Positions 8,531 to 34,345 of a stretch of DNA of 64,000 bases are shown piece after piece; positions within the stretch are counted from its first letter, which is position 1; every line of letters begins with the position of its first letter. Both the position numbers and the translations under genes were made by a program. Below the pieces are notes generated by a model. It was not told the origin of the DNA, ran no database searches, and saw nothing but the letters and a program-made list of their open reading frames with translations. Source of the stretch: Kappaphycus alvarezii (taxonomy: Eukaryota; Rhodophyta; Florideophyceae; Gigartinales; Solieriaceae); the NCBI GenBank assembly GCA_002205965.3, contig NADL03000137.1:124001-188000 (forward strand), written 5' to 3'.

Positions 8531-8547
8531 CCATCATTAATGAACTG

Positions 8548-9969
8548 TGATAGGGGTAAATCGTCGGGTGAAGAGATACTCAGACCCAACTACCCCAAGA
8601 AGGAGGTGTTGCAAGCGACAAAAGTGCTACCGTGGTATAGTTGAACGAACAAAAAGGATTGTATATGGAAGAGAGTTGAGAGGGCTACAAGCAAGTATAA
8701 AAGGGGCAGGGGTCTACCACTGATGCTCTGTGAGCAGCGTAGGAAAAAGGTTTCTTGGATCTGAAGTTGACTGGCAACTTCCTACTACTCAGGACGTGGC
8801 TTGAAGTTGTCCGCCAACTTGCTTGACCTCCACAAGAGGAAGCAGTTTACTCAGCTTATATAGACTTTTTGGGTATCCCTAAAGTCTCAAAGAAACATAC
8901 TAAGAACCATAAAATGCATCAAATGGAATCGTGTGAACAAGAAAGACTAACTGCAGATAATATCAGGATAAGTATCTAGATTCTTTCCTTAATATCTTAG
9001 TCCCCTATATTAGAGCCAAACAGTTCCCCCAAAATATCCATTCCACCCAGGCAGTCCACACAAATATCCGCGAACGGCTTAGAATTCTCCATTGCCTCCT
9101 GCGAAATATCTGGACCACTGAGGACGTCCCCATCCGGTTCCGGAGTCGGAACCACCTGGTCCATATTTTCTGGCCCCTTACCCACTAATCCAGCACTTTC
9201 CATGTCTCTCTCCCCCTCATCCTCCTCTTCCTCCTCTTCTCTCCTCTCTTCATCCTCGTCAGAAGAGTCAGAGATCACAATTACTCCCCCAGGCTCCCCT
9301 CTTTTCTCTATGGGAGCCCCCCCACCGTTACACACTAGTGGTTCCCACGGATCCACCCAGTCCTCCTCTTCATCCTCCTCATCCTCCTCTTCCTCTAACT
9401 CAACTTCTCCCTCCTCCTCCTACTCTGCCTCTCCTGCCTGCTCGAAGCAGTTACGGCGGACCCACACTCCCGAGCGAGTTCCCGGTCCAAACTTCTACAG
9501 TAATCATAGTAGTCGGTTGGAACATTTGCCATCAGGGGCAAAGCGTTGAGTGGACGACGGCCTCGGGATGACTTGGTGATGGTGAGGGAAGGGCGGAGGT
9601 TGGTCATGCTTGTTGAAAAAGGGATAGAATGCATGCAATGTGTTTTTCCTACAATGCTAAGGGCTAAAAGAAGGGGTGAGCCGATGGGGTAGTTGATGGC
9701 GGGGGGTTGCCTCAACGACGTCGACTTCGAAGTTTAAATACTACGACGTCTTCGAAAAGTATGTCGACCTTGGACGTGTACAGTAATGACATCTATTAAT
9801 GACACGGTGTCTTAAAATAAAAAATCAACTCATGAATTTGCCACACTCCTCCAATTAAAAAATATCTTGCAAATTCAGAAACTCTAAAAATATCTTCCAA
9901 ATCCCGATACTATATCCAAATTTGGTCCTCCTCTAGATTTTTTGTCGTGTGCAATTTTTGCGCACATCA
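8548..9969 (-). repeat. long LTR (3' LTR of A) containing the U3 gene
   Basis: This 1422-bp LTR is bounded on the plus strand by TGATAGGGG and GCGCACATCA. It is nearly the same as the 5' LTR of C (20304-21731). It shares R/U5 with the other LTRs (TATA box, AAGTTG/CAACTT hairpins, ACCACGGTA block). In place of about 100 bp of the standard U3 it has a cassette with a TATTTAAA promoter and a protein-coding gene. It carries the GAGTATC variant in U5 that is shared only with the long LTR of C. Confidence 0.9.
8997..9607 (-). pseudogene. U3-encoded acidic protein, frameshifted copy
   Basis: The start is the ATG whose complement lies at 9605-9607; the product begins MTNLRPSLTI. The order is a basic N-terminal segment with RRPLNALPL, a DYYDYCRSLDREL segment, an extended Glu/Asp stretch, the SUMO-interaction-like core VIVISDSSDEDE, and a conserved C-terminus (VVPTPEPD, ISQE, KPFADIC, MDILGELFGSN). 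The N-terminal and acidic halves are in different frames, so this copy is broken at the domain junction. I do not recognise the family. The gene sits wholly within U3, so every element insertion would carry two copies. Confidence 0.7.
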
Positions 9970-10005
9970 CGCCCTCCCGCTCAAGACGATCGTCCCGGCT
10001 CGTCA

Positions 10006-11067
10006 TTAACTCTCTTGTTGTTCTTGTGGGAGTTCTATCCATTCATCAGGGAGAGTATATGGTTGACTGAAAGGATATGGTAGTAGCTCATTTCCAATAT
10101 GATGAGAGAGTGTGTACCGTGCGATGACCGGCTCATCTCCTTGGTCAAGAGTTTCGTAGATTCGGCGTATGGTTTCATAGTGTTTTCTAATGAGCTCCTC
10201 CCGTTTCACTTCTCCAAACCTTCCAAATGTGAGGTAGTAGACGTAGTATGCAAACTTTTCTGGCAACGGGTCCAGAAACGGGTATCTGAAGGAGAAAAAA
10301 ACTCGCAACATAAGGACTGAGTCCTCACGAGTAAGGTGCGCCCCGTGAATGGTTTGGAAGCACATGCAAATACTAATGGCAAAAAAGGAAATTACTTCTG
10401 CTTCTCGAGGGTCCTCTGTTATCTCAAGAAGCCAACGTCTGATTGGTAGTCGTCCAATAATTAAGGAGGCATAGTTTCCCCCTGGGAGACTAGGCGGTGT
10501 TTGAGGTGATCTTCTTGGTGATCTTCCTCGCTGCTCCCGACGCCTTGCCCTCTTCGATGATCCGCCCCGATCACTTGATGGTCCTACTCGTATCATCATG
10601 ACGGTCTCGGGAGGATCTTGATCTTCAGCTGAGCTTGTGTTCATGAGCGGAGAAACGTAAGGTTCCCGTAGAGGATACGGGAACAGTCGATTTTCCATAT
10701 CATGGGGTAAGGCGTAACCTCTCAGTTCGCACATCTTGGTTGTTCTTGAGAAATACGTAAACGGACGGATAATGTTCAGATATGTTTGCGACAAGTCTCC
10801 GATAGCTACCATTCCATACCTTCCTATAGAGTAATGATAAATTACCTCCAGAAACTCTGGACCTGCTTCCGTGAACCTTCCGTTTTGGGATGAGAATAGA
10901 ACTCTGATTAATAGTCGGAAATCTTCTTGAGGTAGCAATGGTCCGTTCAACGTACGAAAACATAGGCATATATTAATGTAGAAATGGATGATTACGTGGA
11001 GTTCGTAGTAGTCACGCGTAATCGAGATGATCCATTCCTAGGCCCTTTTTCCTCCCATAGGAATCAT
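10006..11067 (-). pseudogene. pol: post-integrase tandem domains of element A (type 1)
   Basis: The reading frame runs on from integrase (ILIFNYRMIPMGG) into two homologous domains of about 120 aa each. The first has CFRTLNG, an ED pair, IRVLFS, a Y..GRYG motif and a C-terminal PYPLREPY. The second has CFQTIHG, ED, LRVFFSF, FGRFGEV and LLPYPFSQPY. A linker with RARRREQRGRSPRRSP joins them. The stop is at 10006. A stop after GGKRA and a frameshift near 10725 break this copy. No known family is recognised. Each domain has a hydrophobic 13-15 residue segment but no clear signal peptide or membrane anchor. Confidence 0.75.
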
Positions 11068-12337
11068 TCTATAGTTAAAGATGAGTATGACCCGTGGTTG
11101 CGAATAGTCCTGTGTGAGAAGGAATTCTTCAGGCCTCTGATGGTAAGGGACTAGACGACGTGCATGGATTGCCCTCCTTGATCTCTTCCCTGAGCTTGAA
11201 CAGAGCTTATAGTGCGGGTGTCTTTCCTCCGTGACGATGCAAGGGTTCGAGTACTTTGTTTGGAATGCCGGCCACTTCACAGCCTGTTGCATTGCTTTTC
11301 CGTGTGCTACAAAGATTTTAGAGCCGACTGAAAAAGTTTGGACTGGAGGCTCTGCATCCTTTTTTCTTTTCTGTGTTAGCGCGCGGTGTGATCTCCAGCC
11401 TTCGGTCGCCAGTAGTTCGACTTCCCTACTCTCTTCATCGATATTTTTTGTCTCCATGTCTCTTTTCGACATTCTAGGAGCCCTTCCGTACATTTGCTCG
11501 AATGGTGACCGTCCACTTCTTCCTCTTCTTCGACGATAGCCGTATAACACTTTTGGTAAGGCATCTTCCCACTGGATTTCATTCTCGACATAGTTTTCGA
11601 TATTGCTCGTTTGATAGTTCCAACCATCCTCTCCGCTTTACCGTTTGACATAGGAGCGTATGCGAGAACTGTCTTCAGCTGAATACCTTTCTCTTCCAAA
11701 AAAAGACGCATTGTAGTTGCAGTAAAACAAAGGGCGTTATCCGAGATGATCCTTTTTGGAAGACCAAACGGTTCAATTATTTCTTTTTCGATGAATCTCA
11801 GGACCACCTCAGCATTGGCCTCCTCAACTGCAACTGCTATTGGCCATCCAGTAAGATGTTCCACCCCTATAAGGAGATATTTGTTTCCGGAAGAGGTTTC
11901 CTTGAATGGGCCGGCAAAGTCAATTGAGAAGGTTTCAAAGAGACCGGAAACTGGAAAGCTTAGAGTTGTCTTATACTTTCGTATCGGAGTGAATTTTTGA
12001 CAGTTGTCACAGCTTTTCACGAAATTATAGACGTCCTTATGGATACTGGGCCACCAGAATCTCTCCGTAATGAATTTTTGGTTGTTTCGAGATCCCAATG
12101 CCCTAACTCATCATGAAAAGTCCTCAAGATCTTCATTCTTTCTTTCAAAGGGGCCACTAGTCGAGGACCGGCTTTCGTGTGTCGGAAGAGTTTCCCATTC
12201 CACAATGTAAAAGCCTTTTGATTCCTGCGTACCCAATTTCTGTGTTCAATATCAACCTTTCTCATTTCTAGTCCATCCAGGAATTTAATTAGTCCGTGAA
12301 TATTAGCTTCGTACTCGTTATTGTTCGGCACTTGCAC
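11068..12337 (-). pseudogene. pol: integrase of element A, broken
   Basis: A Ty3/gypsy integrase inserts element cDNA into the genome. The N-terminal zinc-binding HHCC module is present (H..LGHWD near 12110, CDNCQKF near 12010). Next come the catalytic core with IDFAGPF (first Asp), ISDNALCF (second Asp) and NGKAERM (Glu), the RSPFEQMYGR helix, and a GPY/F-like C-terminal module ending ARRLVPYHQRPEEF. No chromodomain is visible; the tandem extension follows instead. Small indels shift the frame near 11500 and 12050. Confidence 0.8.
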
Positions 12338-13760
12338 CTCGGCAACTCCGACGATGTCTCGGAAGCTTTTTCATTTGGAATCAGTGGATCCCTCAAGCGG
12401 GATAGGTAATCGGCAGGCTGATTATTGCGTCCGGGCCTATACACAATTTCAAACCGATATTCTGCGAAAATGTCGAGCCATCGGGCCAAGCGGTGATGTA
12501 CATCTTTCTTTTGGAATGCTGTCTTAAGTTCCTGGTGATCAGTTATCAAGACAAATTTCTCGAGTGATAAAAGGTACGCGAAACTTTTTCAGTGCGAAGA
12601 CGACAGCGAGCGCTTCTTTCGCAGACTGAGTATCTCTTTCCGCATCATTCAGAGTGCGACTTGCGAATTGAACCGGGTGTAGTCTTCCGTTTTCATCTTT
12701 TTGGGACAAAACGGCACCCAAAGACCGTTCTGAGGCATCTGTCTCCACAACAAATGGTCTCTTGAAATCTGGATACATGAGCACTGGGGGACACATAGCT
12801 TATCTTTAAGCTCTTCAAATGCGTTTGCATTTCCTTGTTCCATAAAATTTTCCGTTCTTCGTAGTGTGCTGGCATGTAACGGTGCTGCAGTCTTGGCGAA
12901 ATCTTTGATAAATCTCTGTAATATGAGGCCAGTCCTAAGAAGCTTCGAACCTCCGTCTTTGAAGCGGGCCTTGGTGCCAACTTGATTTTTTTCGTTTTCT
13001 CTGGATCCACTTTAATTCCCTCTTGATCGACGATATGACCGAGTAATTGGATAGACGTTTTCGCAAAGAAGCATTTGCTTAACTTAATTTTCAGGCTGTA
13101 CGCAGCTATTTCTCCACCACAGTCTTGACATGCGATATGTGCTGATCCAAGGTTTTTGAGAATATCACTACATCATCGATATAAACTCTTGCAAATGGAA
13201 GTCCTTTCAAAACCTCGTTCATCATTCTTTGGAATGTAGCTGGGGCATTCATGAGACCAAAAGGCATCACTTCGAACCTGAATGTACCGGCTTTGCTGGT
13301 AAAAGTTGTTTTTTCCTTGCATTTTTCATCCAATGGAATCTGCCAATAACCAGTGTAAAGATCAATTGAGGTGAAGTATCTCCCGTCCTTCAAGTCCTCG
13401 AGGATTTCCTCCATATTCGGAATCGGAAATCGATCGGGTATCATTCTCTGGTTCAGTTGTCGGTAATCGACGCAAAAGCAGCTTTCCATCCTTCTTTGGT
13501 GCGACCACAACTGGAAATGACCATGGGGATGAAACTGGCCGAATAATATCATTTTCCAGCATACTTGTAACATTCTCTGAGATAAATTGGTCATATTTTG
13601 GCGGTTGACGTCTAGGCCTGTGGTAAATTGGTTGAGTATCGGTAAGTTCAAATGAGTGAGTGACCGGTACACTTGCTTGTCTTAAATCTGAAACGCTCCA
13701 TGCAATTACTTCGGAAGATGTTAACATGTCGGATATTTTCATTGAGGCGGGGGCGGAAGG
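12338..13760 (-). pseudogene. pol: reverse transcriptase-RNase H of element A, broken
   Basis: RT motifs are in order on the minus strand: PVSSPWSFPVV (shifted), [35 protein letters not shown], and the catalytic YIDDVVIFS near 13180. RNase H follows with VVETDASERSLGAVL near 12750 and ITDHQ near 12540; the next landmark is YRPGRNNQPADYLSRL near 12400. Frameshifts split the region into at least five pieces. The layout matches the uninterrupted RT of element B. Confidence 0.85.
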
Positions 13761-14149
13761 TGCTGTACTTTTTCTTGAATTTCTGCCATTTGGCGCTGGT
13801 CTTCTTCTTGATCCTCCCTCCAAATTTTGAAGGACCTCTTCCGGTGCTCACATCTTCAGATATGGAATTCGATATTTTTTCCTTGCAATTGTAATCTTCT
13901 TTCATGCTGAATTCCGTCCTTTGATTCGATATTATCGCAAAAAGAAACCTATCCAGGTCTCAAACCTACCCTAGAATTCCATGTTCATCTGTTTCAAACC
14001 CGGAATCATAATCGTCCCATGTCATGTTCATTATCCCCGAGCGTACCCTTTTCCTTCCGAAAGTGTTAGTTGGTTCGGAATCTTCGCTGTCATAGCTAGA
14101 AGTGAAATCTTCACTGTCCGTTTCTCTTAAATCTTCCGGATGTGTGCTT

Positions 14150-14941
14150 TTGTCGAAATCCAGGGGCATCTTCACGTTCTGCCGTCAACATTAACTGAAA
14201 CGATTTGGTTGCCCAAGTCAATGCAGGTCCCTAGTCTTTCCATGGTAGGGCAGCCAATGATTGCATCGAAAGGGAGATCAGGCATGACAAGAAAGTCTAC
14301 ATCAACTTTAGAGTCCCCAAAGAACACGGAAACCTTGTCAACAGTGCCCATGCATTTTGATACGGTTCCATCCGCCACAGTTATTCTTCGAGTAGTTGGA
14401 ATAATTTCGAGACCTAGATCTGTCACCAAAGTTTCTGAAATAAGGTTTGGAACAGCGCCCGAATCGAAAAGAGCTTGGGTTTTCATTCCCAATACTTTGA
14501 CTGGTACTAGTTTAAGACGTCTTGTGTGCTGTCGAGGCCGATTGAAGAAACAGTTTCTTACCCTTAGCGGACTTATTAGACCTGATAATTTTTTGAGTTA
14601 TTTTCTCGCATCCCTGCGTCGCCTCAAAATACCAAACGTTTTCCAGTTGGGCCGATGCAAGTTCAGCTACAAAATTGTACTTCTTCACATATTCTAGTAC
14701 TCTTTCACAAGCCACTCGCATACCTCACCGAAGTTACGCCCATTCCGTTAAGAGACCACCCGTTGATAAACTTGGCCTTATATTTGTGCTTTGCGTCACC
14801 ATGAAGATAGGCGAAGATACTTTCGGCCTTTTCTTCATCGCTCTTCTCACGCATCAAAATGTTGACATATGTATAGAGAAACTCCTCAACGTCTTCATTC
14901 TTGCCCCCTGTGAACTTTATACGAGCAGCGTTGAGATCCAT
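14150..14941 (-). pseudogene. gag: Gag-protease of element A with large Gag deletion
   Basis: The ATG is at 14941, giving MDLNAARIKFTGG as in the other copies. After the Gag N-terminal segment, the sequence jumps near 14700 to the pre-protease region (VLEYVKKYNF). This removes about 0.9 kb, including both zinc knuckles. Intact copies have GTA at both deletion ends (AAAGAGTATG and GACGTACTAG), so a 3-bp microhomology joins them. The aspartic protease follows with LFDSGAVPNLIS near 14460 and PFDAIIG. The element could not package its own RNA. Confidence 0.8.
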
Positions 14942-15030
14942 GATTACAGAAAAGAAATCCCCATGAAGTGTTCCCTAATACTGCTCAACTCGAATACCTC
15001 GGGTGCAACCACCTCCACAAGAGTACCAAA

Positions 15031-15607
15031 TGATAGGGGTAAATCGTCGGGAGAAGAGATAATCAGACCCAACTACCCCAAGAAGGAGGTGTTGCAAGCG
15101 ACAAAAGTGCTACCGTGGTATAGTTGAACGAACAGAAAGGAGTGTATATGGAAGAGAGTTGAGAGGGCTACAAGCAAGTATGAAAGGGGCAGGGTCTACC
15201 TCTGATGCTCTGTGAGCAGCGTAGGAAAAAGGTTTCTTGGATCTGAAGTTGACTCGCAACTCCCTACTACTCAGAACGTGGCTTGAAGTTGTCTGACAAC
15301 TTGCTTTACACTCTGTGTTGTGTGCGACTTAGTTTGGTGAGCACCCCGCTCGGGTATGCTGACTCACAAGTACTCCTAACATCTCATGCAAACAGCCCCT
15401 TATATTGAGTTTTCAACCCTCAAAATTTGTAGCACCTATACAGTACCTATGTGCCATACGTATCTGCACCGATACAGTACGGGGCAAAGCATCCCTCTAA
15501 AAATAATTGAAAATAAAAATGTAAATACAGTGACAGCGCAGCCAGCGCAGCATGCCAGCTCATCCAGCGCAGCATGCCAAATAATATCTAGAAGTTACAT
15601 CATATCA
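15031..15607 (-). repeat. short LTR (5' LTR of A), U3 type 3
   Basis: This 577-bp LTR has the same R/U5 as the other LTRs but an unrelated U3. It is bounded by TGATAGGGG and ACATCATATCA. Its partner is the 3' LTR of C (25945-26522), with which it shares the U5 variant GATTATC. The primer site lies outside its left edge at about 15014-15028. The right flank GTGTT (15608-15612) is the reverse complement of the AACAC that follows the short LTR of C. Confidence 0.9.
15542..15579. repeat. 16-bp direct repeat in short U3
   Basis: CCAGCGCAGCATGCCA occurs twice (15542-15557 and 15564-15579), 22 bp apart, in the distal U3. A diverged pair is visible in the partner LTR near 25983-26020. A spaced direct repeat in U3 could be an enhancer-type element; that role is inferred. 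Confidence 0.5.
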
Positions 15608-15612
15608 GTGTT

Positions 15613-17125
15613 CAGGATAATGGGTAATGTCACTCGTGAGCTTAAATGGCTGGCTCAAAGCCTGTCAGCAACAGGCACAGGCAACTGCAGTTCTCGGAAT
15701 ATTTCGGGGTCGAGAACGCCGGCGGTGTATGTCCGCACACAGTTCTTCATCATTGCATCAAACACTGCAGCGCCTTCCGCAATGCAAGATGGTGACACCA
15801 CTCGTAACAGGTATCCGAGGTTGCAGACCCCGAAACAGTTGTGCAGGAGGTGGAACGCGATTTGCGTGTTCTCCAAGGCTATGATGGTGTCGAGGAATGG
15901 CTTCAGGGACTTCAAATGGCCCTTGAAGTGCTGCTTGATGAAGCCATTGGTGCCAACTGGAGCATTCAGCACCACTGTGCCATCGCTGTACTCCTGTGCG
16001 AGTTCTCTTGGATAAAGGCGTTGCACTGACTCCTGTGGTGGAGTCGGCCCCCGGATTCGGCATTTCGGCACTGCTAGATGCAGTCCCCGAGCTGTGGCCT
16101 CTGGAGATGACAAGATGTCCAGTGCCTTGCGGAGCTGATCGTGTTTTGCAATGATGTACCCATCATCATGGTACCAAAGTTGAAACAGCGGGTTGCCGAG
16201 TTGCTGCTCTTCGTCATCCCCTGATGTCAGTAACCGTTGGATTTTGAGGATAACGAGGTGCAGCGCAAGATCGAAAAGGAGCCCACCAAGGTTTTTCCCT
16301 TGTCGCGTTCCTTGCACGCTCCGGATGATACGAAGATCAAACCCCAGGAAAGCGGACTCATTTGCGGAGCAGTATGCTACCCACGGGAACAGCTCGGGGA
16401 ACTGGTGTTTGACTGCTCAAGGGAAGCTGTCCAACTGCACAAATTGAATGCGTTTTTGAGGTCAACATTCAGCAATGCGTATTCGGACCTGTGCCCGAAC
16501 TTCTGGACGACCCTCCGGAGTCCATGGACGATGGTGTCAGTGACAGATCGGGTAGCAATGCCGACCTGCAGCAGTTGTAGGTATTCTGCAGCTCTCGCGG
16601 AGGCCCTTATTATTGGGCAGTTAACAGTCAACCTGTGAAGTGTTTCTCCTACCGCTTCTGGCCTGGTTGTCAGGTCTTTCTTGTCCAAAGGGGTTAGGGG
16701 CGCGCCAGCTATCCAAGGGCCAAGGGCGGCTGGGGCCCTTCTGGCTGCGAAGGTGTTCACTATTTTAGACAAGGCTGCCAAAAAACCGAACGGGCCAGAT
16801 GAAGACGTGGATCGCAGAAGTTCGACGAGGTGGCAAGGTTTGAGACCATAACCCCTCGAAGAGGAATCTGGTTTAAGCCCACCAACAGCGTCGAGCACCT
16901 CCTTTTCCGTGAACTGGCGGAAAAGCGGGACATTGTCTAGTGGGATGTTGTGCGCTGCCACGTCGTGGGGGGCTTGTTGGGGGTGCTTCGCGAGGAGCGC
17001 CTGGACGACCTCTGGGGTGGGTGATAACACGCCCAAAGAGCCGAGCGCCTATGCTGCCTTTCCATATGCCCCTTCTGTTAGGCGCGTGCTGATCGGAACG
17101 GATTTTCTTTTCGCCGTCATCTACT
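15613..17125 (-). pseudogene. non-LTR element N1 copy e, RT part (split by inversion)
   Basis: Reverse transcriptase of a non-LTR element. On the minus strand it shows an N-terminal EGAYGKAA segment near 17080, SLGVLSPTPE, GYGLKPCHLVELL, motif A LNVDLKNAFN near 16440, motif B GTRQGKNLGGLLF near 16300, and the catalytic box YHDDG near 16170, followed by GLHLAVPKC. The thumb runs on to DPEIFRELQLPVP near 15700. A frameshift after motif A and some stops break it. The continuation lies at 26528-27075 on the other strand, because a short-LTR element inserted here and the locus was then inverted. Confidence 0.85.
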
Positions 17126-17429
17126 GACTTTTCATTTACTGTACTACCTCTCCTTGTCCAAAATTGCTTATAGTTCCGGTCCTTCCTCGACCTCCCTGAT
17201 CCTTGCTTATCCTTGCCACGGTCCCCTCCAAATTCACTTCCATTTTCTCTAGATATTTTTATACTGTATCTACCTCTCTAAATCGATCCCAAATCAAGGT
17301 TTTTTTCCTTTTCGCTTACCCCTCCTCCAAATTCATTTTTTTGAGAAAAAGTGCGCAAATGCACCACTACAAATTCCCTTGTAGATTTATTTTACCTATT
17401 ACAAATCTATAGAATGAGCCCTCGGGAGC

Positions 17430-17440
17430 CTATTTAAACC
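17430..17440 (+). promoter_or_regulatory. TATA-like box upstream of the U3 gene
   Basis: CTATTTAAACC lies about 115 bp before the ATG of the U3 gene at 17548. The same TATTTAAAC lies at about 20531 and, inverted, near 9740, upstream of the other two copies. It probably drives the U3 gene separately from the genomic TATA box further down the LTR. Confidence 0.5.
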
Positions 17441-17547
17441 CCTTTATTCCAAGTTTCAAACGTCCCCGATCATTGTACTCACCATCCCTCTCCTCCTACC
17501 CATTATAAACACCCTCAATTGCCTACCACTCCCCAAATCCCACCAAA

Positions 17548-18112
17548 ATGGGCAACGTATGCCCCTCCAAAGTCATATCCAAAAATCGCCACCCCCGCCC
17601 CCTAAACTCCATCCCCCTACTCCCTTTCGGACCTACTGACCGTGATGACTACCTACGCCGACAAACCAAAAAGAAGGTGATCGAATTCGTGCGTCGCTTG
17701 TCCGTCGAGGATGAGGCGGGGGAAGTAGGTGAGGGGCAGGAGTGGGAAGACGAGGAGGGAGCTGGGGAGACCTTCGACGAGTGGGTAGCCCCGTAATTGG
17801 TCTACGAGGTTGAAGAAGAAGAGGACGAGGAGGATGATGAAGATGAGGACGGGGGCGATGATGAAGAGGAGGACGAGGGGGGATGAGGGAAAGGGAGATA
17901 TGGGAAGTGTTGGAATGGTGGGGCCGGGGCTAGAAAGGATGGAACAAGTGGTCCCGACGCTGGAACCGGATTGGGATATCTTTAGTAGTTTAGATATCTC
18001 CCAGGAGAAAATGGAGAGTTATGAGCCGTTCGCATATATTTGTGGGGACCGCTTGGGCAGGATGGATATTTTGGAGGGGTTGTTTGGGTCTGATCTAGAG
18101 AATGGGAAATAA
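17548..18112 (+). pseudogene. U3-encoded acidic protein, divergent copy
   Basis: The ATG context is CCACCAAAATGGGC. The N-terminus MGNVCPSK is followed by RHPRPLNSIPLLPFG, which matches RRPLNALPL of the other copies, and by a DDYLRRQ helix-like segment. An acidic tract follows, then the conserved C-terminus (MEQVVPTLEPD, ISQE, EPFAYIC, MDILEGLFGSDLE). A TAA at about 17794 and a later frameshift separate the parts. The SUMO-interaction-like core seen in the other copies is not evident here. The strong divergence with a conserved C-terminus suggests past selection on the protein. Function unknown. Confidence 0.65.
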
Positions 18113-18555
18113 GAGGACCAGATCGATTGTTCGTTTCTTAAGTATCTTTTTTTTGTCCTATATCATCCACAAAACGTGTTTTTATGCATTTCCTGGTATC
18201 TTCTGTAGTTATGCTAGGACTTTAGGGGCAGCCAAAAGTCTATATAGGCCGAGTAAATTGCTTCCTCATGGAGAGGTCAAGCAAGTTGGCAGACAACTTG
18301 AAGTCGAGTCCCGAATAGTAGGGAGTTGAGAGTCAACTTCAGACCCAAGAAAAAGTTTTACTAAGCTGGTAACAGAGCATCAGTGGTAGACCCTGCTCCT
18401 TTCATACTTGCCTGTAGCCCTCTCAACTGTCTTCCTTATCCACTCTTTTTTTGTTCGTTCAACTATACCACGGTAGCACTTTTGTCGCTTGTAACACCTC
18501 CTCCTTGGGGTAGTTGGTTCTGAGTATCTCTTCTCCTGACAATTTTACGCTATCA

Positions 18556-20298
18556 GATAGATCAAATATAACTTTCAACAGGAAAAGCACCTATTCTTTT
18601 CCCCAATTCAAACGCCGACGTACTGAGAATGCCCCAGTACCGCCTTAAACGGATTCCTGGATTACGGTAGGTCCTCTCAGGGTCCAATCTGCCACACTTC
18701 CGCTCCCTGCTAAACCATCCGACATCAACCGCTAAAGTCCCCTTGAACCCATTACCAACCCCAATGCCGACATGGATCATTATGCATGAATCTCTGTGCC
18801 ATGAATCAATTTTCAGGTTCATCTAGCCACCAACCTGCTCGAGACCCGCCAACCATCTCCCGATTATCGGATCTATCTTTTTCATCCCTAACCTTCCGTT
18901 CCCTTCTCTCCGCCCCTTCCCTGTTCTTACCTGCATTCCTCTTCCAGTCCAAGCCGCAGCTTACGAATTAAACTACGCAGGTTTGCATCGCGTTGTATCC
19001 GCTCCGTCGCCCGAGAACAGAACTCGAGCCCTCCTGATACTTCTTGCCATCCGGGGAATGTTTTGGGTGTTTTACTTTTGGAAGATATATCTTGCCATCC
19101 CGAAGCAGGTTTTCGGACACAGAAGCCCGCTCGTCCTGGGCCGCCGTCGCCGTGAAAATTTCTCCAGCCTTGTTGACCGCACCCGCATGGCTTCCCGTAG
19201 TCTCTATGAAGACCTTTTTTAATAATTCTGCGAATTTGCAAACTTCCGCCCTCGCCTCTCCGATTCCATCCACTCTCGCCCTCGCCTGCCCTGACAAGAC
19301 CCTTCGTACTGTCGCTGTTTCTCTCCCAGTGTAGCCCTTTCCGGGCCATCGCAGCACTTCTCCGGGTTGAACCCAAACTCTCTCCAGCGAAGCTAATTTA
19401 CCGTCCTTGCCTTCTCTCCATCCCATGCTGCCCAGTTCTATCACTCACATGAGCCCCCATCGCCTCATCAGCTAGGATTCGTCGTCAAGAACGGTACCAA
19501 TGCAATCATTCGCTCCGAGCGTCGTCTTGCCCAGATTCCCGAGTTCCATGACAAGAAAAAGGCCATCACAAACTGATATCGGCTTTGTTAGGCCAGAAAA
19601 TTTGATGAATATAGGCTATTGCCAGCAAAAATGCAGTAGGGTATTGGATAGTGTTTAAGTGGTGTGTATTTTGCTTGTAATATTGTTGCGTACTCGCGGT
19701 CATGTCGCTTTTGGTTTACATACAATGACCGCATGTGGGTTCTGCTATGGGTGCAGATGCAATTTTAAGCCGAATACAGTACATTCGAGAAGCGCACTTG
19801 TACAGAGATATGCTATCTATTTCGAGTCTGATATTACATCAAAATACTTCGTGTTGTCGATGTACGCTGCTAGTCTAGATATTTCTAGAGCTGTTAGCAC
19901 GAAGATATTCTTTTTCGTCATACCAGCCGTCAACTGGTATGATGTAGGGCATCTATAAAGGTCATTCGATTGAACGGCCACTCACCGCGGGAACTCCGCA
20001 GAAGGGTGAGTGCGCCCGCTTGCTTGCCTTACCTGGCAGAGTAGAATCTGCTCCCTCTTTCCCGCACTATTCTTTCACTTGATTGCTGTTGTGTTCCGTT
20101 GGTTTCGCACGCCAAATTCGTCCCCAGGTATCAAGTGGTATTTAGGACTCATTGTTGTCCCGTCTTTCGGCTTTTGCCTGCGAAGATGCGACATGTCAGT
20201 GTGCCGGTGTTGAACAGTTCATGGGAAAAAAGGGTGTTTCTTTATTGATATGTATGGACCGGCTGGAAACCATATTTGGAATTGTAAATCTGAATGTA
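18556..20298. other. unassigned sequence with one coding-like patch
   Basis: No family is recognised. From 18968 to 19444 the minus strand has an open, Ala/Arg/Glu-rich, helix-like frame interrupted by the N1 footprint at 19053-19090. It could be a fragment of a Gag or ORF1-type protein or a host gene. The rest (19450-20298) has only short, unsupported frames. If the A/C inversion is right, this stretch is now flipped relative to its original orientation. Confidence 0.35.
19053..19090 (-). mobile_element. 38-bp N1 footprint
   Basis: The plus strand reads GGGGAATGTTTTGGGTGTTT and then the N1 terminal block. It lies between perfect 10-bp direct repeats CTTGCCATCC (19043-19052 and 19091-19100). 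It is a severely 5'-truncated N1 insertion with its target duplication intact. Confidence 0.8.
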
Positions 20299-20303
20299 CA
20301 GTT

Positions 20304-21731
20304 CGATGTGGGCAAAATTTGCACGCGACAAAAAATCTAGAGGAGGACCAAATTTGGATATAGTATCGAGATTTGGAAGATATTTTTACAGTTTCTGAAT
20401 TTGCAAGATATTTTTTAATTGGAGGAGTGTGGCAAATTCATGAGTTGATTTTTTATTTTAAGACACCGTGTCATTAATAGATGTCATTACTGTACACGTC
20501 CAAGGTCGACATACTTTTCGAAGACGTCGTAGTATTTAAACTTCGAAGTCGACGTCGTTGAGGCAACCCCCCGCCATCAACTACCCCATCGGCTCACCCC
20601 TTCTTTTAGCCCTTAGCATTGTAGGAAAAACACATTGCATGCATTCTATCCCTTTTTCAACAAGCATGACCAACCTCCGCCCTTCCCTCACCATCACCAA
20701 GTCATCCCGAGGCCGTCGTCCACTCAACGCTTTGCCCCTGATGGCAAATGTTCCAACCGACTACTATGATTACTGTAGAAGTTTGGACCGGGAACTCGCT
20801 CGGGAGTAGGTCCGCCGTAACTGCTTCGAGCAGGCAGAAGAGGCAGAGTAGGAGGAGGAGGGAGAAGTTGAGCTAGGGGAAGAGGAGGATGAGGAAAATG
20901 AGGAGGATGAAGAGGAGGACTGGGTGGATTCGTGGGAACCACTAGTGTATAACGGTAGGGAGGCTCCCATACAGAAAAGAGGGGAGACTGATGGAGTAAT
21001 TGTGATCTCTGACTCTTCTGACGAGGATGAAGGGAGGAGAGAAGAGGAGGAAGAGGAGGATGAGGGGGAGGGAGACATGGAAAGTGCTGGATTAGTGGGT
21101 AAGGGGCCAGAAAATATGGACCAGGTGGTTCCGACTCCGGAACCGGATGGGGACGTCCTCAGTGGTCCAGATATTTCGCAGGAGTCAATGGAGAATTCTA
21201 AGCCGTTCGCGGATATTTGCGTGGACTACCTGGGTGGAATGGATATTTTGGGGGAACTGTTTGGTTCAAATGTAGAGGACTAAGATTTTAAGGAAAGAAT
21301 CTAGATATTTATCCTGATAGTATCTGCTGTTAGTCTTTCCCGTTCACACGATTCCATTTGATGCATTTTATGGTTCTTAGTATGTTTCTTTGAGACTTTA
21401 GGGATACCCAAAAAGTCTATATAAGATGAGTAAACTGCTTCCTCTTGTGGAGGTCAAGCAAGTTGACGGACAACTTCAAGCCACGTCCTGAGTAGTAGGA
21501 AGTTGCGAGTCAACTTCAGATCCAAGAAACCTTTTTCCTACGCTGCTCACAGAGCATCAGAGGTAGACCCTGCCCCTTTCATACTTGCTTGTAGCCCTCT
21601 CAACTCTCTTCCATATACAATCCTTTTTGTTCGTTCAACTATACCACGGTAGCACTTTTGTCGCTTGCAACACCTCCTTCTTGGGGTAGTTGGGTCTGAG
21701 TATCTCTTCTCCCGACGATTTACCCCTATCA
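20304..21731 (+). repeat. long LTR (5' LTR of C) containing the U3 gene
   Basis: This 1428-bp LTR begins CGATGTGGGC, where other copies have TGATGTGCGC, and ends CCCCTATCA. The first base appears mutated. A genomic TATA box (TCTATATAAG) lies near 21415-21424 and the two R-region hairpins near 21460-21525. The primer site follows at 21734. Its partner is the 3' LTR of A. Confidence 0.9.
20666..21283 (+). pseudogene. U3-encoded acidic protein with two in-frame TAG codons
   Basis: One frame runs from ATG 20666 to the stop at 21283 (about 205 codons), interrupted only by TAG at about 20807 and 20849. The parts are: basic N-terminus (RGRRPLNALPL); DYYDYCRSLDREL; a long Glu/Asp run; VIVISDSSDEDE, a typical SUMO-interaction motif with an acidic tail, near 20996; more Glu; and the conserved VVPTPEPD...MDILGELFGSN end. 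The upstream TATTTAAAC at about 20531 is a likely promoter. It may be a captured host nuclear protein; that is inference. No known family is recognised. Confidence 0.7.
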
Positions 21732-21733
21732 TT

Positions 21734-21747
21734 TGGTACTCTTGTGG
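21734..21747 (+). promoter_or_regulatory. primer binding site of element C
   Basis: TGGTACTCTTGTGG begins two bases after the LTR end. The same sequence follows every 5' LTR in the window. It would pair with a tRNA whose 3' end is CCACAAGAGTACCA. It is not the usual initiator-Met site (TGGTATCAGAGC). Confidence 0.7.
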
Positions 21748-21819
21748 AGGGGGCCGCACTCGATGTATTCGAGTTGAGAAGTATTAGGGAACCTTCATGG
21801 GGATTTCTTTTCTGTAATC

Positions 21820-22660
21820 ATGGATCTGAACGCTGCTCGTATAAAGTTCACAGGGGGCAAGAATGAAGACGTTGAGGAGTTTCTCTATACATATGTCAAC
21901 GTTGTGATGCGTGAGAAGGGCGATGAAGAGAAGGCCGCAAGTATCTTCGCCTATCTTCATGGTAACGCAAAGCACAAATATAAGGCCAAGTTTATCAACG
22001 GGTGGTCTCTTAAAGGGAATGGGCGTAACTTCGGTGAGGTATGCGAGTGGCTTGTGAAAGAGTATGCTTAGGAGGTAGAACTAGATGAGATGATTCGTAC
22101 CGCCATAGAGGCCCGGCTCAACTTCGACGATTTGTTAAGCTCATTGGTGTACTTGTGTGATCTTTATGAAAAGGCCGGGTTCAACGCCCAAGCCAAGTAC
22201 GGAATGCTGCGTAAGGCGGCGATGGGGGATAAGCGGCTCTCCGATTTCCTCCTCATCAAGGGCCCTCACACTTTTGATGAACTGAAGGGTACCATAGTAG
22301 AATTTGTCAAAAATTCGGAGACGTTTCAGTCACTAAGTGAAATATCGAGGAAAACCCGTACATCTATGCCGATCATAAATTTTGAAAAGAATTATCAAAG
22401 GCCGTCTACTAGCACAACGGCATTGGAATCTGTCAGGAGCGATGTCAAAAACTTGAAAGAAAGGTTAGAAACCCGATCGATAATTGACTTGACATGATAA
22501 CAACGCAGTTGGAAGGCCTTACTCTTACCATTAAGAAGAACCAGTCTGGGGCCCCTAAGGCCGCAGAAGTCTATTCTTACTGCCACAAGCCTGGAAACTT
22601 TGCAAAATAGGTGTCCTGATAACCCACATAGAAACACTCGTTGTGGAAAGAGCGTCCAGG
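21820..22660 (+). pseudogene. gag: Gag of element C, broken
   Basis: The ATG at 21820 gives MDLNAARIKFTGG. Gag forms the particle and binds RNA. The region continues through EEFLYTYVNVV, FAYLHGNAKHKY and a TAG near 22069 to LLSSLVYLCDLY and the first zinc knuckle (Cys codons near 22575-22610, disrupted). Just after the knuckle near 22645 the sequence jumps to the pre-protease region, deleting the second knuckle. It is non-functional. Confidence 0.8.
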
Positions 22661-25060
22661 AGTGGAAAATACTCCGGTCAAGAAGACGAAAAAGAGTAAA
22701 AATTTTAAGAAAATCTCGAAGGACGTACTAGAATATGTGAAGAAGTACAATTTTGTAGCTGAACTTGCATCGGCCCCAACTGGAATAACGTTTGGTCAAT
22801 TTTTGAGGGGCGACGCAGAGGATGCGAGAAAATAACTCAAAAAAATTATCAGGTCTAATAAGACCGCTAAGGGTAAGAAATTGTTCCTTCAATTGGCCTC
22901 GACAGCACCACGAAGTCTTAAGCTGGTACCAGTCAAAGTATTGGGAATGAAAAACCAAGCTCTGTTCGCTTCGGGCGCTGTTCCAAACCTCATTTCAGAA
23001 AATTTGGTGACAGATCTAGGTCTCGAAACAACTCCAACTACTAGAAGAATAACTGTTTGCGGATGGAACCGTATCAAAATGCATGAGCAATGTTGACAAG
23101 GTTTCCGTGTTCTTTGGGGACTCCAAAGTTGATTTAGACTTTCTTGTCATGCCTGATCTCCCTTTCGATGCAATCATTGGCTGCCCTACCATGGAAAGAC
23201 TAGGGACATGCATTGACTTGGGCAACCAAATCGTTTCAGTTAATATTGACGGCAGAAACGTGAAGATGCCCCTGGATTTCGACAAAAGCACACATCCGGA
23301 AGATTTAAGAGAAACGGACAGTGAAGATTTCACTTCTAGCTATGACAGCGAAGATTCCGAACCAACTAACACTTTCGGAAGTGGAAAAGGGTACGCTGGG
23401 GATATGAACATGACATGGGACGATTATGATTCTGGGTTTGAAACAGATGACGACTGGAATTCTAGGGTAGGTTTGAACCTGAATGTGTTTCTTTTGCGAT
23501 AATATCGAATCAAAGGACGGCATTCAAGAAATTCGTGAAGAAGATTATCAAGATGTGAGCACGCCGGAAAGGTCCTTCAAAATTTGGAGGGTGAGGATCA
23601 AGAAAAAAGGGCGCCAAATGGCAGAAATTCAAGAAAAAGTACAGCACCTTCCCGCCCCCGCCTCAATGAAAATATCCGACATGTTAACATCTTCCGAAGT
23701 AATTGCATGGAGTTTCAGATTAAGACAAGCAAGTGTACCGGTCACTCACTCATTTGAACTTACCGTACTCAACCAATTTACCACAGGCCTAGACGTCAAC
23801 CGCCAAAATATGACCAATTTATCTCAGAGAATGTTACAAGTATGCTGGAAAATGATATTATTCGGACCAGTTTCATCCCCATGGTCATTTCCAGTTGTGG
23901 TCGCACCAAAGAAGGATGGAAAGCTGCGTTTTTGCGTCGATTACCGACAACTGAACCAGAGAATGATACCCGATCGATTTCCGATTCCAAATATGGAGGA
24001 ATACTCGAGGACTTGAAGGACGGGAGATACTTCACCTCAATTGACCTTTACACTGGCTATTGGCAGATTCCATTGGATGAAAAATGTAAGGAAAAAACAA
24101 CCTTTACCAGCAAAGCCGGTACATTCAGGTTCGAAGTGATGCCTTTTGGTCTCATGAATGCACCAGCTACATTCCAAAGAATGATGAACGAGGTTTTGAA
24201 AGGACTTCCATTTGCAAGAGTTTATATCGATGATGGTAATATTCTCAAAACTTGGATCAGCACATATCGCATGTCAAGACGGTGGAGAGGATATCTGATA
24301 CAGCCTGAAAATTAAGTTAAGCAAATGCTTCTTTGCGAAAACTTCTATCCAATTACTCGGTCATATCGTCGACCAAGAGGGAATTAGAGTGGATCCAGAG
24401 AAAACGAAAAAAATCAAGTTGGCACCAAGGCCCGCTTCAAAGACGGAGGTCCGAAGCTTCTTAGGACTGGCCTCATATTACAGAAGATTTATCAAAGATT
24501 TCGCCAAGACTGCAGCACCGTTACATGCCAGCACTACGAAGAACGGAAAATTTTACTGGAACAAGGAAATGGAAACTGCATTTCAGGAGCTTAAAGATAA
24601 GCTATGTGTCCCCCCAGTTCTCATGTACCCAGATTTCAAGAGACCATTGTTGTGGAGACAGATGCCTCAGAACGGTCTTTGGGTGCCGTTTTGTCCCAAA
24701 AAGATGAAAACGGAAGACTACACCCTGTTCAATTCGCAAGTCGCCACTCTGAATGATGCGGAAAAGAGATACTCAGTCTGCGAGAAAGAAGCGCTAGCTG
24801 TCGTCTTCGCGCTGAAAAAGTTTCGCGTATACCTTTTATCACTCGAGAAATTTGTCTTGATAACTGATCACCAGGCACTTAAGACAGCATTCCAAAAGAA
24901 GGATGTACATCACCGCTTGGCCCGATGGCTCGACATTTTCGCAGAATATCGGTTTGAAATTGTGTATAGACCCGGACGCAATAATCAGCCTGCCGATTAC
25001 CTATCCCGCTTGAGGGACGCACTGATTCCAAATGAAAAAGCTTCGAGGACATCGTCGGAG
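22661..25060 (+). pseudogene. pol: protease-RT-RNase H of element C, broken
   Basis: The protease active site is altered: LFASGAVPNLIS near 22965 has Ala where the catalytic Asp of DSG should be. RT motifs are FCVDYRQLNQ near 23930, IDLYTGYWQIPL near 24040 and [13 protein letters not shown] near 24140. The YIDD box at 24223-24234 is followed by a small deletion (GN instead of VV). RNase H (KEALAVVFALKKF, ITDHQALKTAF) is readable but its TDASERS region is frameshifted near 24650. All are Ty3/gypsy type. Confidence 0.85.
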
Positions 25061-25908
25061 TGCCGAGTGCAGTGCCGAACGATAACGAGTACGAAGCTAA
25101 TATTCACGGACTAATTAAATTCTTGATGGACTAAAAATGAGAAAGGTTGATCTTGAACACAGAAATTGGGTACGCAGGAATCAAAAGGCTTTTACATTGT
25201 GGAATGGGAAACTCTTCCGACACACTAAAGCCGGTCCTCGACTAGTGGCCCCTTTGAAAGAAAGAATGAAGATCTTGAGGACTTTCCATGATGAGTTAGG
25301 GCATTGGGATCTCGAAACAACCAAAAATTCTTACTGAGAGATTCTGGTGGCCCGGTATCCATAAGGACGTCTATAATTTCGTGAAAAGCTGCGAAAACTG
25401 TCAAAAATTCACTCCGATACGAAAGTATAAGACAACTCTAAGCTTTCCAGTTTCCGGTCTTTTTGAAACTTTCTCAATCAACTTTGCTGGCCCATTCAAG
25501 GAAACTTCTTCGTGAAACAAATATCTCCTTATAGGGCTGGAACATCTTACTGGATGTCCAATAGCAGTTGCAGTTGAGGAGGCCAATCCTGAAGTGGTCC
25601 TGAGATTCATTGAAAAATTGAAATAATTGAACCGTTTGATCTAACAAAAAGGATCATTTCAGATAACGCTCTCTGTTTTACTGCAACGTTACTGCTTGGT
25701 TTTTTGGTAGTCAGAGAGATTCAATTGAAAAGGTTCTCGATTACGCCCATATGTCAAACGGGGAAGAAGAAAAGATGGTCGGAACCATCAAATGCGCACC
25801 TGCTTTTTGGAATACTTCAGAGGTAATCAGCTGCATCCATATCCGTTTGAAAGGCCTTATGTTAAATCAATAAGGCAAAGTACATTAATGGAAACAAAAG
25901 AAGAATAA
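25061..25908 (+). pseudogene. pol: truncated integrase joined to extension remnant (element C)
   Basis: The HHCC module is readable (FHDELGHWD near 25285, NCQKF near 25395). Of the core, the first Asp is lost (FSINFAGPF), ISDNALCF remains near 25660, and NGEEEKMVGT replaces NGKAERMVGT. At about 25790 the sequence jumps straight into the last about 40 codons of the type 2 extension (NQLHPYPFERPY), deleting the integrase C-terminus and most of the tandem domains. The stop precedes ACGAGTCGGG and the purine tract. Confidence 0.8.
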
Positions 25909-25944
25909 TGACGAGTCGGGACGTTCGTCTCGAGCGAGGGGGCG

Positions 25945-26522
25945 TGATATGAGGTAACTTCTAGATATTATTTGGCATACTGCGCTGGATGAGCTGGAAT
26001 GCTGCGCTGGCTGCGCTATCACTGTATTTACATTTTTATTTTCAATTATTTTTTAGAGGGATGCTTTGCACCGTACTGTAGCGTTGCAGATACGTATGGC
26101 ACATAGGAACTGTATAGGTGCTACAAATTTTGAGGGATGAAAACTCTATATAAGGGGCTGTTTGCATGAAATGGTAGGAGTACTTGTGAGTCAGCATACC
26201 CGAGCGGAGGGCTCACCAAACTAAGTCGCACACAACACAGAGTGTAAAGCAAGTTGTCAGACAACTTCAAGCCACGTCCTGAGTAGTAGGAAGTTGCGAG
26301 TCAACTTCAGATCCAAGAAACCTTTTTCCTACGCTGCTCACAGAGCATCAGAGGTAGACCCTGCCCCTTTCATACTTGCTTGTAGCCCTCTCAACTCTCT
26401 TCCATATACAATCCTTTTTGTTCGTTCAACAATACCACGGTAGCACTTTTGTCGCTTGCAACACCTCCTTCTTGGGTTAGTTGGGTCTGATTATCTCTTC
26501 TCCCGACGATTTACTCCTATAA
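25945..26522 (+). repeat. short LTR (3' LTR of C), U3 type 3
   Basis: This 578-bp LTR begins TGATATGAGGTAAC and ends TACTCCTATAA, where intact ends read CCCCTATCA. It has a TATA box (TATATAAG at 26147-26154) in its distinct U3, followed by AAGTTG-TCAGA-CAACTT and the common R/U5. Its partner is the 5' LTR of A. The right flank AACAC (26523-26527) is the target duplication. Confidence 0.9.
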
Positions 26523-26551
26523 AACACGTCTACCATAAACCGGGGGGATAG

Positions 26552-26599
26552 ATCGGACTTATCCTCCAAGAGTAAAACACCCAAACCTTTCTCCTGGGA
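26552..26599 (+). mobile_element. 48-bp N1 footprint
   Basis: The insert reads ATCGGACTTATCC... through AAACCTTTCTCC and is flanked by GATAG (26547-26551 and 26600-26604). The paralogous DNA at 42290-42306 reads straight through (CCGGGGGATAGCCG) without it. This makes it a clean short insertion with an empty-site control. Confidence 0.75.
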
Positions 26600-26689
26600 G
26601 ATAGCCGAGCCGCTTCTTTCAAATATTAAAGACCCAAATCGTTTTCAACGTTGCCTGTGAAACCAATTACTACCAAGAGGCCATTACTG

Positions 26690-27075
26690 GGAATTGGACT
26701 CACCTAGGCGAAGTCAATCGCAGCTGCAGCCTTCCTTGCCTCCAGCGCAGCGTCCAGCAGGCTGTGCACAGCCCTGCTTCCAACGATAATTGCGCATCTT
26801 GCAACGTACCGAGACACCGTGGAGGGGCACCAGATTTGGTCCCTCTCTTGCTCCCAATCCAGGATTCTCCCCTTCAGTGCCCTCTGCTCAAACAAAACAC
26901 CATCGCAGAAGACACTTTCGGACGCCATCCACGAGTGGGTGCAGGAAGAGATAGATGTTGGCAACAACAGACGGCAGGCCTTCCGTGCCTCTATGGGGCT
27001 CCCCGACGCGAAAGATTGGGTTTACTGTACCCCATCTCTTCTCGGATCCAAACAAGGTCTGTCCAGAATTGCTGA
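26690..27075 (+). pseudogene. N1 copy e, downstream part
   Basis: The translation shows AKSIAAAAFLASSAASS near 26703, matching AKNIAAA.FLASSSSSS of copies a and c. It continues through CSNKTPSQKTLSDAIHEW, RRQAFRASMGLPDAKDWVYC near 26965-27025, and then diverges. This is the linker after the RT thumb. In other copies it directly follows the segment that here lies at 15613-17125 on the opposite strand. A TAG near 26704 and sequence loss after 27040 make it dead. Confidence 0.75.
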
Positions 27076-27247: not shown

Positions 27248-27579
27248 TCCTGCTTGGGAAAGGTTTGGGTGTGTTACTCTTGGAAGATATACCCGGTCTA
27301 TCCCCATGGTTTTCAAGACAACCGCAATCAACTCAAAAAGGGTATAACGACACAGTAATGGGGAAAGAACTACGCTCCCTAAAATGCTACCTTCAGCCAT
27401 CAAGCAGGCCGCATTGGACATGACGGCTGCTGCAGCGTGCCTTTGCATCAAAACCCCCCGACCCTTTCCGTACGTCTCCAGTGCCCTTACGGCCACGTTC
27501 CTTGCCACGTCATTTAGCACTGCACATGCATCCGGGTGCCACCCTCCAAGAGTGGAGATTGGCACAGGCACGAGCCTAC
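27248..27579 (-). pseudogene. N1 copy a, 3' end (C-terminus and 3' UTR)
   Basis: On the minus strand it reads PVPISTLGGWHPDACAVL, ARNVAVRALETYGK, QRHAAAAVMSNAACLMA and a stop. A 3' UTR of about 130 bp follows and ends ACACACCCAAACCTTTCCC at 27248. The protein continues from 35062 onward; element B separates the two parts. The 3' terminus is the same one seen in all the N1 footprints. Confidence 0.8.
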
Positions 27580-28289
27580 TGATGTGCGCAAATTCGCACA
27601 CGAAAAAATCTAGATGAGGACCAAAATTGTGTACAGTATTTGGAACTGGGAAGATATTTTTACAGTTCTTGAATTTGCAAGATACTTTTAATTTGGGTGA
27701 GTGTGGCAAATTCATCGGTTGATTTTTTATTTTAGGACACACTGTCATAGTGGATGTCAGTACAGTTCTAGGTTGTGGGTGATACTACGAGTGACTCTGA
27801 AAGGTCTATATAATGGCCACATCAATTCCCACCCCTGGCCGATGGGTGGCTTGCATGGGTATGGCACCTAGATATTTACCTTGAGGAAATATCTTCTAAT
27901 GGTCTCTCTGGTTCACACGATTCCCGTGAATGCTTTTATGGTTATTAGTATGTTTGTTGAGACTTTAGGTAGCCAAAAGTCTATATAAGCCGAGTAAACT
28001 GCTTCCTTAGTGGAGGTCAAGCAAGTTGGCAGACAACTTCAGGTCAAGCTCCGAGTAGTAGGAAGTTGAGAGTCAACTTCAGACCCAAGAAAACTTTTTC
28101 CTAAGCTGGTCGCAGAGCATCAGTGGTAGACCTGCCCCTTTTATACTTGCTTGTAGCCCTCTCAACTCTCTTCATATACACTCCTTTTGTTCGTTCAACT
28201 ATACCACGGTAGCACTTTTGTCGCTCGCAACACCTCCTTCTGGGTAATTGGTTCTGAGTATCTCTTCTCCCGACGATTTACCCCTATCA
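27580..28289 (+). repeat. 5' LTR of element B (standard U3)
   Basis: The termini TGAT...ATCA form a short inverted repeat. Close to the start is a perfect hairpin, TGTGCG-CAAATT-CGCACA. There are two TATA-like boxes (27807-27814 and 27982-27989) about 175 bp apart. The first lies where the long LTR has the promoter of its U3 gene and may be a relic of it. Confidence 0.9.
27982..28080 (+). promoter_or_regulatory. core promoter and twin R-region hairpins
   Basis: TATATAAG at 27982-27989 is followed about 35 bp later by two hairpins: AAGTTG-GCAGA-CAACTT (28023-28039) and GAAGTTGA-GAG-TCAACTTC (28062-28080). Both arms persist in the standard, long and short LTRs while loops vary. The transcript should start between the TATA box and the hairpins, so they would lie near the RNA 5' end. 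A role in packaging, dimer formation or translation is inference. Confidence 0.6.
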
Positions 28290-28291
28290 TT

Positions 28292-28305
28292 TGGTACTCT
28301 TGTGG
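28292..28305 (+). promoter_or_regulatory. primer binding site of element B
   Basis: TGGTACTCTTGTGG starts two bases after the 5' LTR. It would be primed by a tRNA ending CCACAAGAGTACCA. The acceptor identity is not known to me. Confidence 0.7.
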
Positions 28306-28374
28306 AGGGGGTTGCACCCGAGGTATTTCGAGTTGAGCAGTAGGGAACACTTCGGGGATTTCTTTTCTGTAATC

Positions 28375-29300
28375 ATGGATCTCAACGCTGCTCGTATAAC
28401 GTTCACAGGGGGCAAGAATGAAGACGTTGAGGAGTTTCTTATACATATGTCAACGTTGTGATGCGAGAAGGGCGATGAAGAGAAGGCCGCAAGTATCTTC
28501 GCCTATCTTCATGGTGACGCAAAGCACAAATATAAGTCCAAGTTTATCGACGGGTGGTCTCTTAACGGGAATGGGCGTAACTTCGGTGAGGTATGTGAGT
28601 GGCTTGTGAAAGAGTATGCTAAGGAGGTAGAACCAGATGAGATGATTCGTACCGCCATAGAGGCCCGGCTCAACTTCGACGATTTGTTAAGCTCATTGGT
28701 GTACTTGTGTGATCTTTATGAAAAGGCTGGGTTCAACGCCCAAGCCAAGTACGGAATGCTGCGTAAGGCGGCTATGGGGGATAAGCGGCTCTCCGATTTC
28801 CTCCTCATCAAGGGCCCTCACACTTTTGATGAACTGAAGGGTACCATAGTAGAATTTGTCAAAAATTCGGAGACGTTTCAGTCACTGAGTGAGGTACCGA
28901 GGGAAACCCGCACATCGATGTCTATCGTACATCCTGAAAAGAATTATCAAAGGCCGGCTACTAGTGCAGCGGCATTAGAATCTGTCAGGAGCGATGTCAA
29001 AAACTTGGAAGAAAGGTTGGAAACCCGATTCGATAATCGACTTGACATGATAACCTCGCAGTTGGAAAGCCTTACTCTTACCATTAAGAAGAACCAGTCT
29101 GGGGCCCCTAAGGCCGCAGAAGTCTGTTCTTACTGTCACAAGCCTGGACACTTTGCAAACAGGTGTCCTGATAATCCACATAGAAACACTCGTTGTGAAA
29201 GTGCGGTCGATATGGGCATCATGAAAGTAACTGCTGGTCTAAAGACAACAGAAGAGCAAATTTATCGGAAGCAAGGAGTGAGTCAGGACCAGAGGTGAAA
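28375..29300 (+). pseudogene. gag: Gag of element B, frameshifted
   Basis: The ATG at 28375 lies 85 bp after the LTR. Gag builds the particle and binds genomic RNA. The capsid-like part (FAYLHGDAKHKYK, WLVKEYAKEVEPDEMI, LLSSLVYLCDLYEKAG) runs to about 28900, followed by a coiled-coil-like segment (LEERLETRFDNRLDMI). The CCHC knuckle CSYCHKPGHFANRC lies at about 29124-29165. A second knuckle (CGKCGRYGHHESNC in array unit 2) is destroyed here by a 1-base loss near 29200. A missing base near 28437 breaks the N-terminus. Confidence 0.85.
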
Positions 29301-34325: not shown

Positions 34326-34345
34326 CGAGTCGGGACGTTCGTCTT

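Follow-up and report, generated by a model that had tools for sequence, protein, structure and literature searches.

Within 18 kb of a genomic contig of the red alga Kappaphycus alvarezii (NADL03000137.1) lie two LTR retrotransposons in opposite orientation, each of which has two unlike LTRs and unlike flanking 5-mers, and the question raised by this locus is how such a pair came to lie side by side. We have analysed a stretch of 64,000 nucleotides of this contig (positions 124,001 to 188,000 of the forward strand), hereafter the window, to which all coordinates below refer. An earlier note on this DNA had read the locus as an inversion between two opposed LTR elements, and our analyses support this reading: un-inverting one segment restores both target duplications, both LTR pairs, a small nested repeat and the order of a further repeat, termed N1, all together.

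Structure and Identity of the Two Elements

The two elements, viz. A (8548-15607, minus strand) and C (20304-26522, plus strand), are Ty3/gypsy-type elements whose limits were set by self-comparison and by direct reading of their ends, and each has one long LTR of ~1.42 kb and one short LTR of ~0.58 kb. The 3' LTR of A is long (8548-9969, 1422 bp) and its 5' LTR is short (15031-15607, 577 bp), and C has a long 5' LTR (20304-21731) and a short 3' LTR (25945-26522), an arrangement that agrees with the earlier description. The internal region of A (9970-15030) contains an integrase ORF at 11376-12107 and lacks 956 alignment columns close to its 5' end; that of C (21732-25944) contains an RNase H ORF at 24299-25114 and has a large deletion ahead of its 3' end. 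The two internal regions are homologous in opposite orientation, so that homologous copies stand at both ends of the inverted segment. The LTR termini of A, and those of a related element D (27580-35061, plus strand), are TG...CA; the outer LTR ends of C are decayed, with CG for TG at 20304 and AA for CA at 26522.

The assignment of the A/C/D family to the Ty3/gypsy type is based on its integrase, RNase H and reverse transcriptase (RT) domains, since Pfam identifies H2C2 and rve (integrase) in A, RNase H in both C and D, and RVT_1 in D. The integrase lies nearer the 3' LTR, a domain order that was deduced from the self-comparison alignment of the elements. A search with the RT region gave identities of up to 58% among the best 120 of 4632 matches. 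A 25-base LTR pattern, which occurs exactly in just five of the window's LTRs and is therefore blind to the D/T type, had no exact match in viral_contigs or genome_contigs.

Exchanged Target Duplications

The 5 bp next to each end of A and C were read directly on the plus strand. The two halves of the target duplication of the long-LTR element are found at the left of A (AACTG, 8543-8547) and at the left of C (CAGTT, its reverse complement, 20299-20303), and those of the short-LTR element are found at the right of A (GTGTT, the reverse complement of AACAC, 15608-15612) and at the right of C (AACAC, 26523-26527). The reverse-complement relationship that had been claimed for both left flanks and both right flanks is thus perfect over 5 bp in each pair. 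When the six ends of A, C and the control element D, which was picked after its target duplication was already visible, were compared in all 15 pairings, 5-bp matches in the required orientation were present in three of them: between the left ends of A and C (AACTG), between their right ends (AACAC), and between the two ends of D (CCTAC). Neither A nor C had matching 5-mers at its own two ends. By simple arithmetic, the chance that both swapped 5-mers would agree is ~(1/4)^10, or ~1e-6.

Element D is a normal insertion which keeps its own target duplication, CCTAC, and has paralogous empty sites: its joined flanks match positions 40524-40125 at 88% over 401 positions, together with a second, weaker copy. 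Two other end joins yielded matches that were rejected. The match of the joined A-right and C-left ends is the flank of A itself (15807-15579) with a chance run-on, and joining C-left to D-right gave five weak matches (E 0.004-0.026); the duplications are unmatched in both cases.

Pairing of the Long and Short LTRs

The LTRs of A and C pair across the two elements, long with long and short with short. The long pair differs by 39 substitutions over 1419 sites and 3 indels, and the short pair by 22 substitutions over 577 sites and 1 indel. Long and short LTRs have ~280 bases of R-U5 in common; the long and short U3 regions do not match each other at the threshold of our self-comparison, in which each U3 matches its partner. 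The R-U5 of the four LTRs contains 22 variable columns (8 two-against-two, 13 singletons and 1 unclassified), none of which backs a grouping of the LTRs by element. All 8 two-against-two columns separate long from short LTRs, as do all 6 that are left after columns 1 and 3, which are gaps at the edge where the LTR pieces were cut, are dropped; of these six usable sites, columns 4, 5, 6 and 9 are at the edge of the shared stretch, and 22 and 256 are inside it. The pair-specific U3 regions are stronger evidence for the pairing than the R-U5 sites, and the two together make both A and C chimeric at the level of their LTRs. The private U5 variants that the earlier note had ascribed to the two pairs stand in part: among the 12 LTRs compared, GATTATC is found only in short LTRs, but GAGTATC, ascribed to the long LTRs, is also present in S and D5. 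A practical consequence of the pairing is that an age estimate for either element from its own two LTRs would be meaningless, since these are unlike; the valid pairs for dating are the 3' LTR of A with the 5' LTR of C, and the 5' LTR of A with the 3' LTR of C.

Unlike LTRs on one element could also be imagined to arise without any inversion, through reverse transcription or through gene conversion of a single LTR. Reverse transcription gives both LTRs the same U3, so that both LTRs of A, and likewise of C, would carry one U3. Neither this process nor gene conversion relocates target duplications or splits N1 and its nested repeat, and an origin of this kind is extremely improbable, even though gene conversion among LTR copies is documented in the available part of one report (PMC4921805).

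Insertion Sites of the Short and Long Elements

The flanks on the right of A and on the right of C contain the two parts of a small repeat of ~190 bp, the insertion target of the short element, viz. 15613-15675 (minus strand) and 26528-26649 (plus strand). A paralog of this repeat at 42228-42347 (plus strand), in which both flanks adjoin, is equivalent to an empty site of the short element. The earlier proposal that this paralog crosses the restored junction holds, as the joined A-right and C-right flanks align with 42228-42347 at 76.6% identity (E 4e-19).

Outside the small repeat, the same two flanks contain the two parts of N1, a repeat whose likeness to reverse transcriptase was judged by eye from its translation; Pfam found no match in the two long frames of N1. 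The first part lies at 15676-17125 (minus strand) and the second at 26651-27075 (plus strand), the latter end being that given in the earlier note (our alignments reach 27035). That one N1 copy is split between the minus side at 15.6 kb and the plus side at 26.6 kb, as was originally noticed, agrees with alignments both to paralogs within the window and to an outside protein, P0121. In the paralog at 35514-37267, the two N1 parts are contiguous (~65% identity), and a stop-to-stop frame at 35490-36041 (minus strand) crosses the position of the 15.6/26.6 kb split with no stop at the split point. A third copy (39527-39870) contains the second part only and is silent on N1 order.

A protein search with this crossing frame gave one match with E <= 0.001 among 479 candidates, which is P0121. 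Residues 7-130 and 135-182 of P0121 align in order to 16193-15822 and 15807-15664 (minus strand), followed by residues 176-250 to 26651-26875 (plus strand), with E values of 8e-23 and 6e-20 (composition correction and low-complexity filter off). The first 130 residues align in a frame that has stops and that differs from the frame of the next stretch, and P0121 may itself be a damaged copy; such damage does not matter for its use as a marker of order. The restored order of N1 and the nested repeat is that seen in two paralogs of the window and in one outside protein.

Compared with P0121 and with the paralog at 35 kb, the N1 copy examined here has ~190 extra bases at the split, bounded by the 10-bp word GTTGCCTGTG. 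This word has only two exact occurrences in the window, at 15676-15685 (minus strand) and at 26650-26659 (plus strand), which form the two halves of an apparent nested duplication, and the overlap in the P0121 alignment (residues 176-182) contains the LPV that the duplicated word encodes. We infer that the small repeat entered N1 with a 10-bp target duplication and that the short element then entered the small repeat, in which case the inversion would have split all three layers.

Empty sites were seen only as paralogs, for the short element and for the control D; none was seen for the long element. When the joined flanks of the long element were compared with the window, no paralog spanned the junction, and its insertion is therefore read from its duplication and LTR pairing. 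A collinear match between 19404-19459 and 42878-42824 is weak (E 0.001) and was not relied on.

Probable Origin of the Arrangement by Inversion

Exchanged duplications, LTRs paired across two elements, and a split N1 and small repeat are most readily explained by a single ectopic (homologous) crossover between the opposed elements, or by an odd number of such crossovers, which very probably inverted the intervening DNA. Under this proposal, two related Ty3/gypsy-type elements would have inserted in opposite orientation ~5 kb apart, the insertion of the long-LTR element creating AACTG and that of the short-LTR element creating AACAC within the small repeat nested in the N1 copy. One or an odd number of later ectopic crossovers would then have inverted everything between the exchange points, a segment of ~7-10 kb, leaving two chimeric elements with unlike LTRs and with their target duplications exchanged. 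Such an inversion would leave what A and C provide, an unusually complete record of a single event, with both reciprocal products side by side, a single break that runs through one target duplication and one apparent nested duplication, and an internal control.

The same arrangement would result if the unique middle segment (15608-20303) had been flipped during assembly between the long inverted repeats, the organism itself having the ordinary order. Long inverted repeats are a known trap for assemblers, the homologous arms of A and C are long and include stretches at 95-99% identity, and nothing in the window tells whether the flip is biological or was made by the assembler. The internal regions of a tandem array of the same family (42882-63708), in which indels are about as numerous as substitutions (65 and 67 between units T1 and T2), might also point to imperfect sequence of repeats. 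Against this, 230 of the 3505 comparable internal sites distinguish A from C and each element has unlike U3 regions, so that reads of modest length might separate the two, and the three units of the array were kept apart in the assembly even though they are 97-98% identical, which suggests that long reads were used. The divergence of A from C and the resolved array favour a real arrangement mildly and indirectly, and we consider an artefact quite unlikely; the inversion would then have occurred in the living organism.

A related proposal is that the A/C pair acts as a recurrent flip switch, in which the ~5-kb middle inverts repeatedly and both orders segregate in the population. With each flip, the LTRs and internal halves of the two elements would be reshuffled, and this would go some way towards explaining why their internal regions are mosaic; we regard a switch of this kind as unlikely.

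Position of the Proposed Crossover and Probable Exchange among Copies

The earlier note had proposed that an alignment of the A and C internal regions would locate the crossover. The expected homology in opposite orientation is present, but no single reciprocal switch of affinity was seen. Affinities were scored against the window's remaining four copies, D and T1-T3, at those sites that distinguish D from the majority of the T copies, excluding sites where the tested element has a gap. Up to column 5250, element A agrees with T at 158 of 186 sites, and beyond this column it does so at 269 of 289. For element C, the sites up to column 4427 are mixed (86 D, 80 T and 7 other), and 33 of 47 sites in its last 155 columns are D-like. 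The first 332 columns contain just six informative sites, and the first two of these misfit a simple switch.

Two tracts are candidates for the exchange. The first is the 5' leader/gag end; of the 10 variants limited to A and C, 6 are located there (columns 315-1397). Read simply, the affinities would place the crossover near the 5' end (A at ~14.6-15.06 kb, C at ~21.7-22.8 kb), which would give an inverted interval of ~7-8 kb. The second is in the RT region (A 13419-13752, C 23656-23988) and is the longest stretch between A and C that is free of substitutions, with none in 330 comparable columns and 7 indel columns; a crossover here would give an inverted interval of ~10 kb. A permutation test of this tract, which ignores codon constraint and covers 3031 comparable columns up to 4094 (124 differences) with the divergent 3' end dropped, gave 0 of 20000.

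Between columns 2501 and 3750, A differs from T2 at only ~3 of 1231 sites, with five windows of this alignment at 99.6-100%, a closer likeness than that between the LTRs of the long element's own pair (39/1419). Because of this near-identity, copies in the window have probably exchanged sequence after insertion, and hence the affinities are not to be taken at face value; this exchange is apparently the reason why no single crossover point emerges from them.

Such exchange also bears on the possibility that the locus was formed in two or more steps other than inversion, for example by independent exchanges with further copies, or by an arm being duplicated and lost. The A-T2 tract is one trace of other exchanges; another is the array, located on the minus strand, which has the structure LTR-internal-LTR-internal-LTR-internal-LTR with LTRs shared between units. 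Its outer flanks, GATTG and CGTGT, are unmatched, and it has therefore probably resulted from unequal exchange between different insertions. The partner ends of A and C, however, are within the same 18 kb, are in mirror order, and have both duplications restored together. In view of this mirror order and simultaneous restoring, one inversion is simpler than a multi-step origin, which we judge to be very improbable.

Comparison with Known Rearrangements

Inversion by this process is already established, and the A/C pair is best read as a new example of it. As described in the available part of the report on inversion 2z3 of Drosophila buzzatii (PMC2775673), that inversion was generated by homologous crossover between two Galileo copies in opposite orientation, both chimeric and with exchanged target duplications; these three marks are likewise found in A and C. 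According to the same source, Galileo belongs to the DNA transposons and makes duplications of 7 bp, whereas A and C are LTR retrotransposons with duplications of 5 bp; a maximum chi-square test narrowed the 2z3 crossover to within 141 bp, and sequence was obtained from non-inverted chromosomes, whereas A and C are known from one assembly, with an interval of at most ~11 kb.

Two other systems have features in common with A and C, as far as the accessible portions of their reports go. The gibbon provirus 10_73510506 (PMC11379458) has non-matching duplications and discordant LTRs and apparently consists of two insertions joined by recombination; it is described as giving a translocation, with flanks that map to two human chromosomes, whereas in the present case both products of a local inversion would lie side by side. 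The chimeric centromeric LTR retrotransposons of maize CEN10 (PMC4806543) are complete, have mismatched TSDs and lie in a cluster that recombines; that portion describes recombinant elements but, unlike the case of A and C, no pairing of the two products of a single inversion.

Other Repeats and Reading Frames of the Window

The U3 of the long LTRs (8548-9969 and 20304-21731) contains a remnant ORF whose product would be strongly acidic (VIVISDSSDEDE and glutamate runs). Over 195 bases of this ORF, the three codon positions show 15, 14 and 18 differences, which gives no indication of selection. A degenerate LTR of partly long type, S (17342-18557, plus strand; left end uncertain), is located within the inverted segment and holds a related, broken frame of the acidic ORF. 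No obvious matching target duplication was found for S, for which the right flank is GATAG and the left end is uncertain.

The indels in the array internal regions (43602-62987) are mostly of 1 bp, and their balance with substitutions is unlike that in the paired LTRs of A and C (3 indels against 39 substitutions in the long pair, and 1 against 22 in the short pair). A short dispersed repeat (GGTTTGGGTGTTTTACTCTTGGAAGATA-like) is present in several flanks (26545-26594, 27256-27380, 37383-37628, 42044-42167 and others). Lastly, positions 12-1026 contain a more distant relative of the 3' end of the family, which has ~74% identity to the other LTRs and is cut through by the edge of the window.
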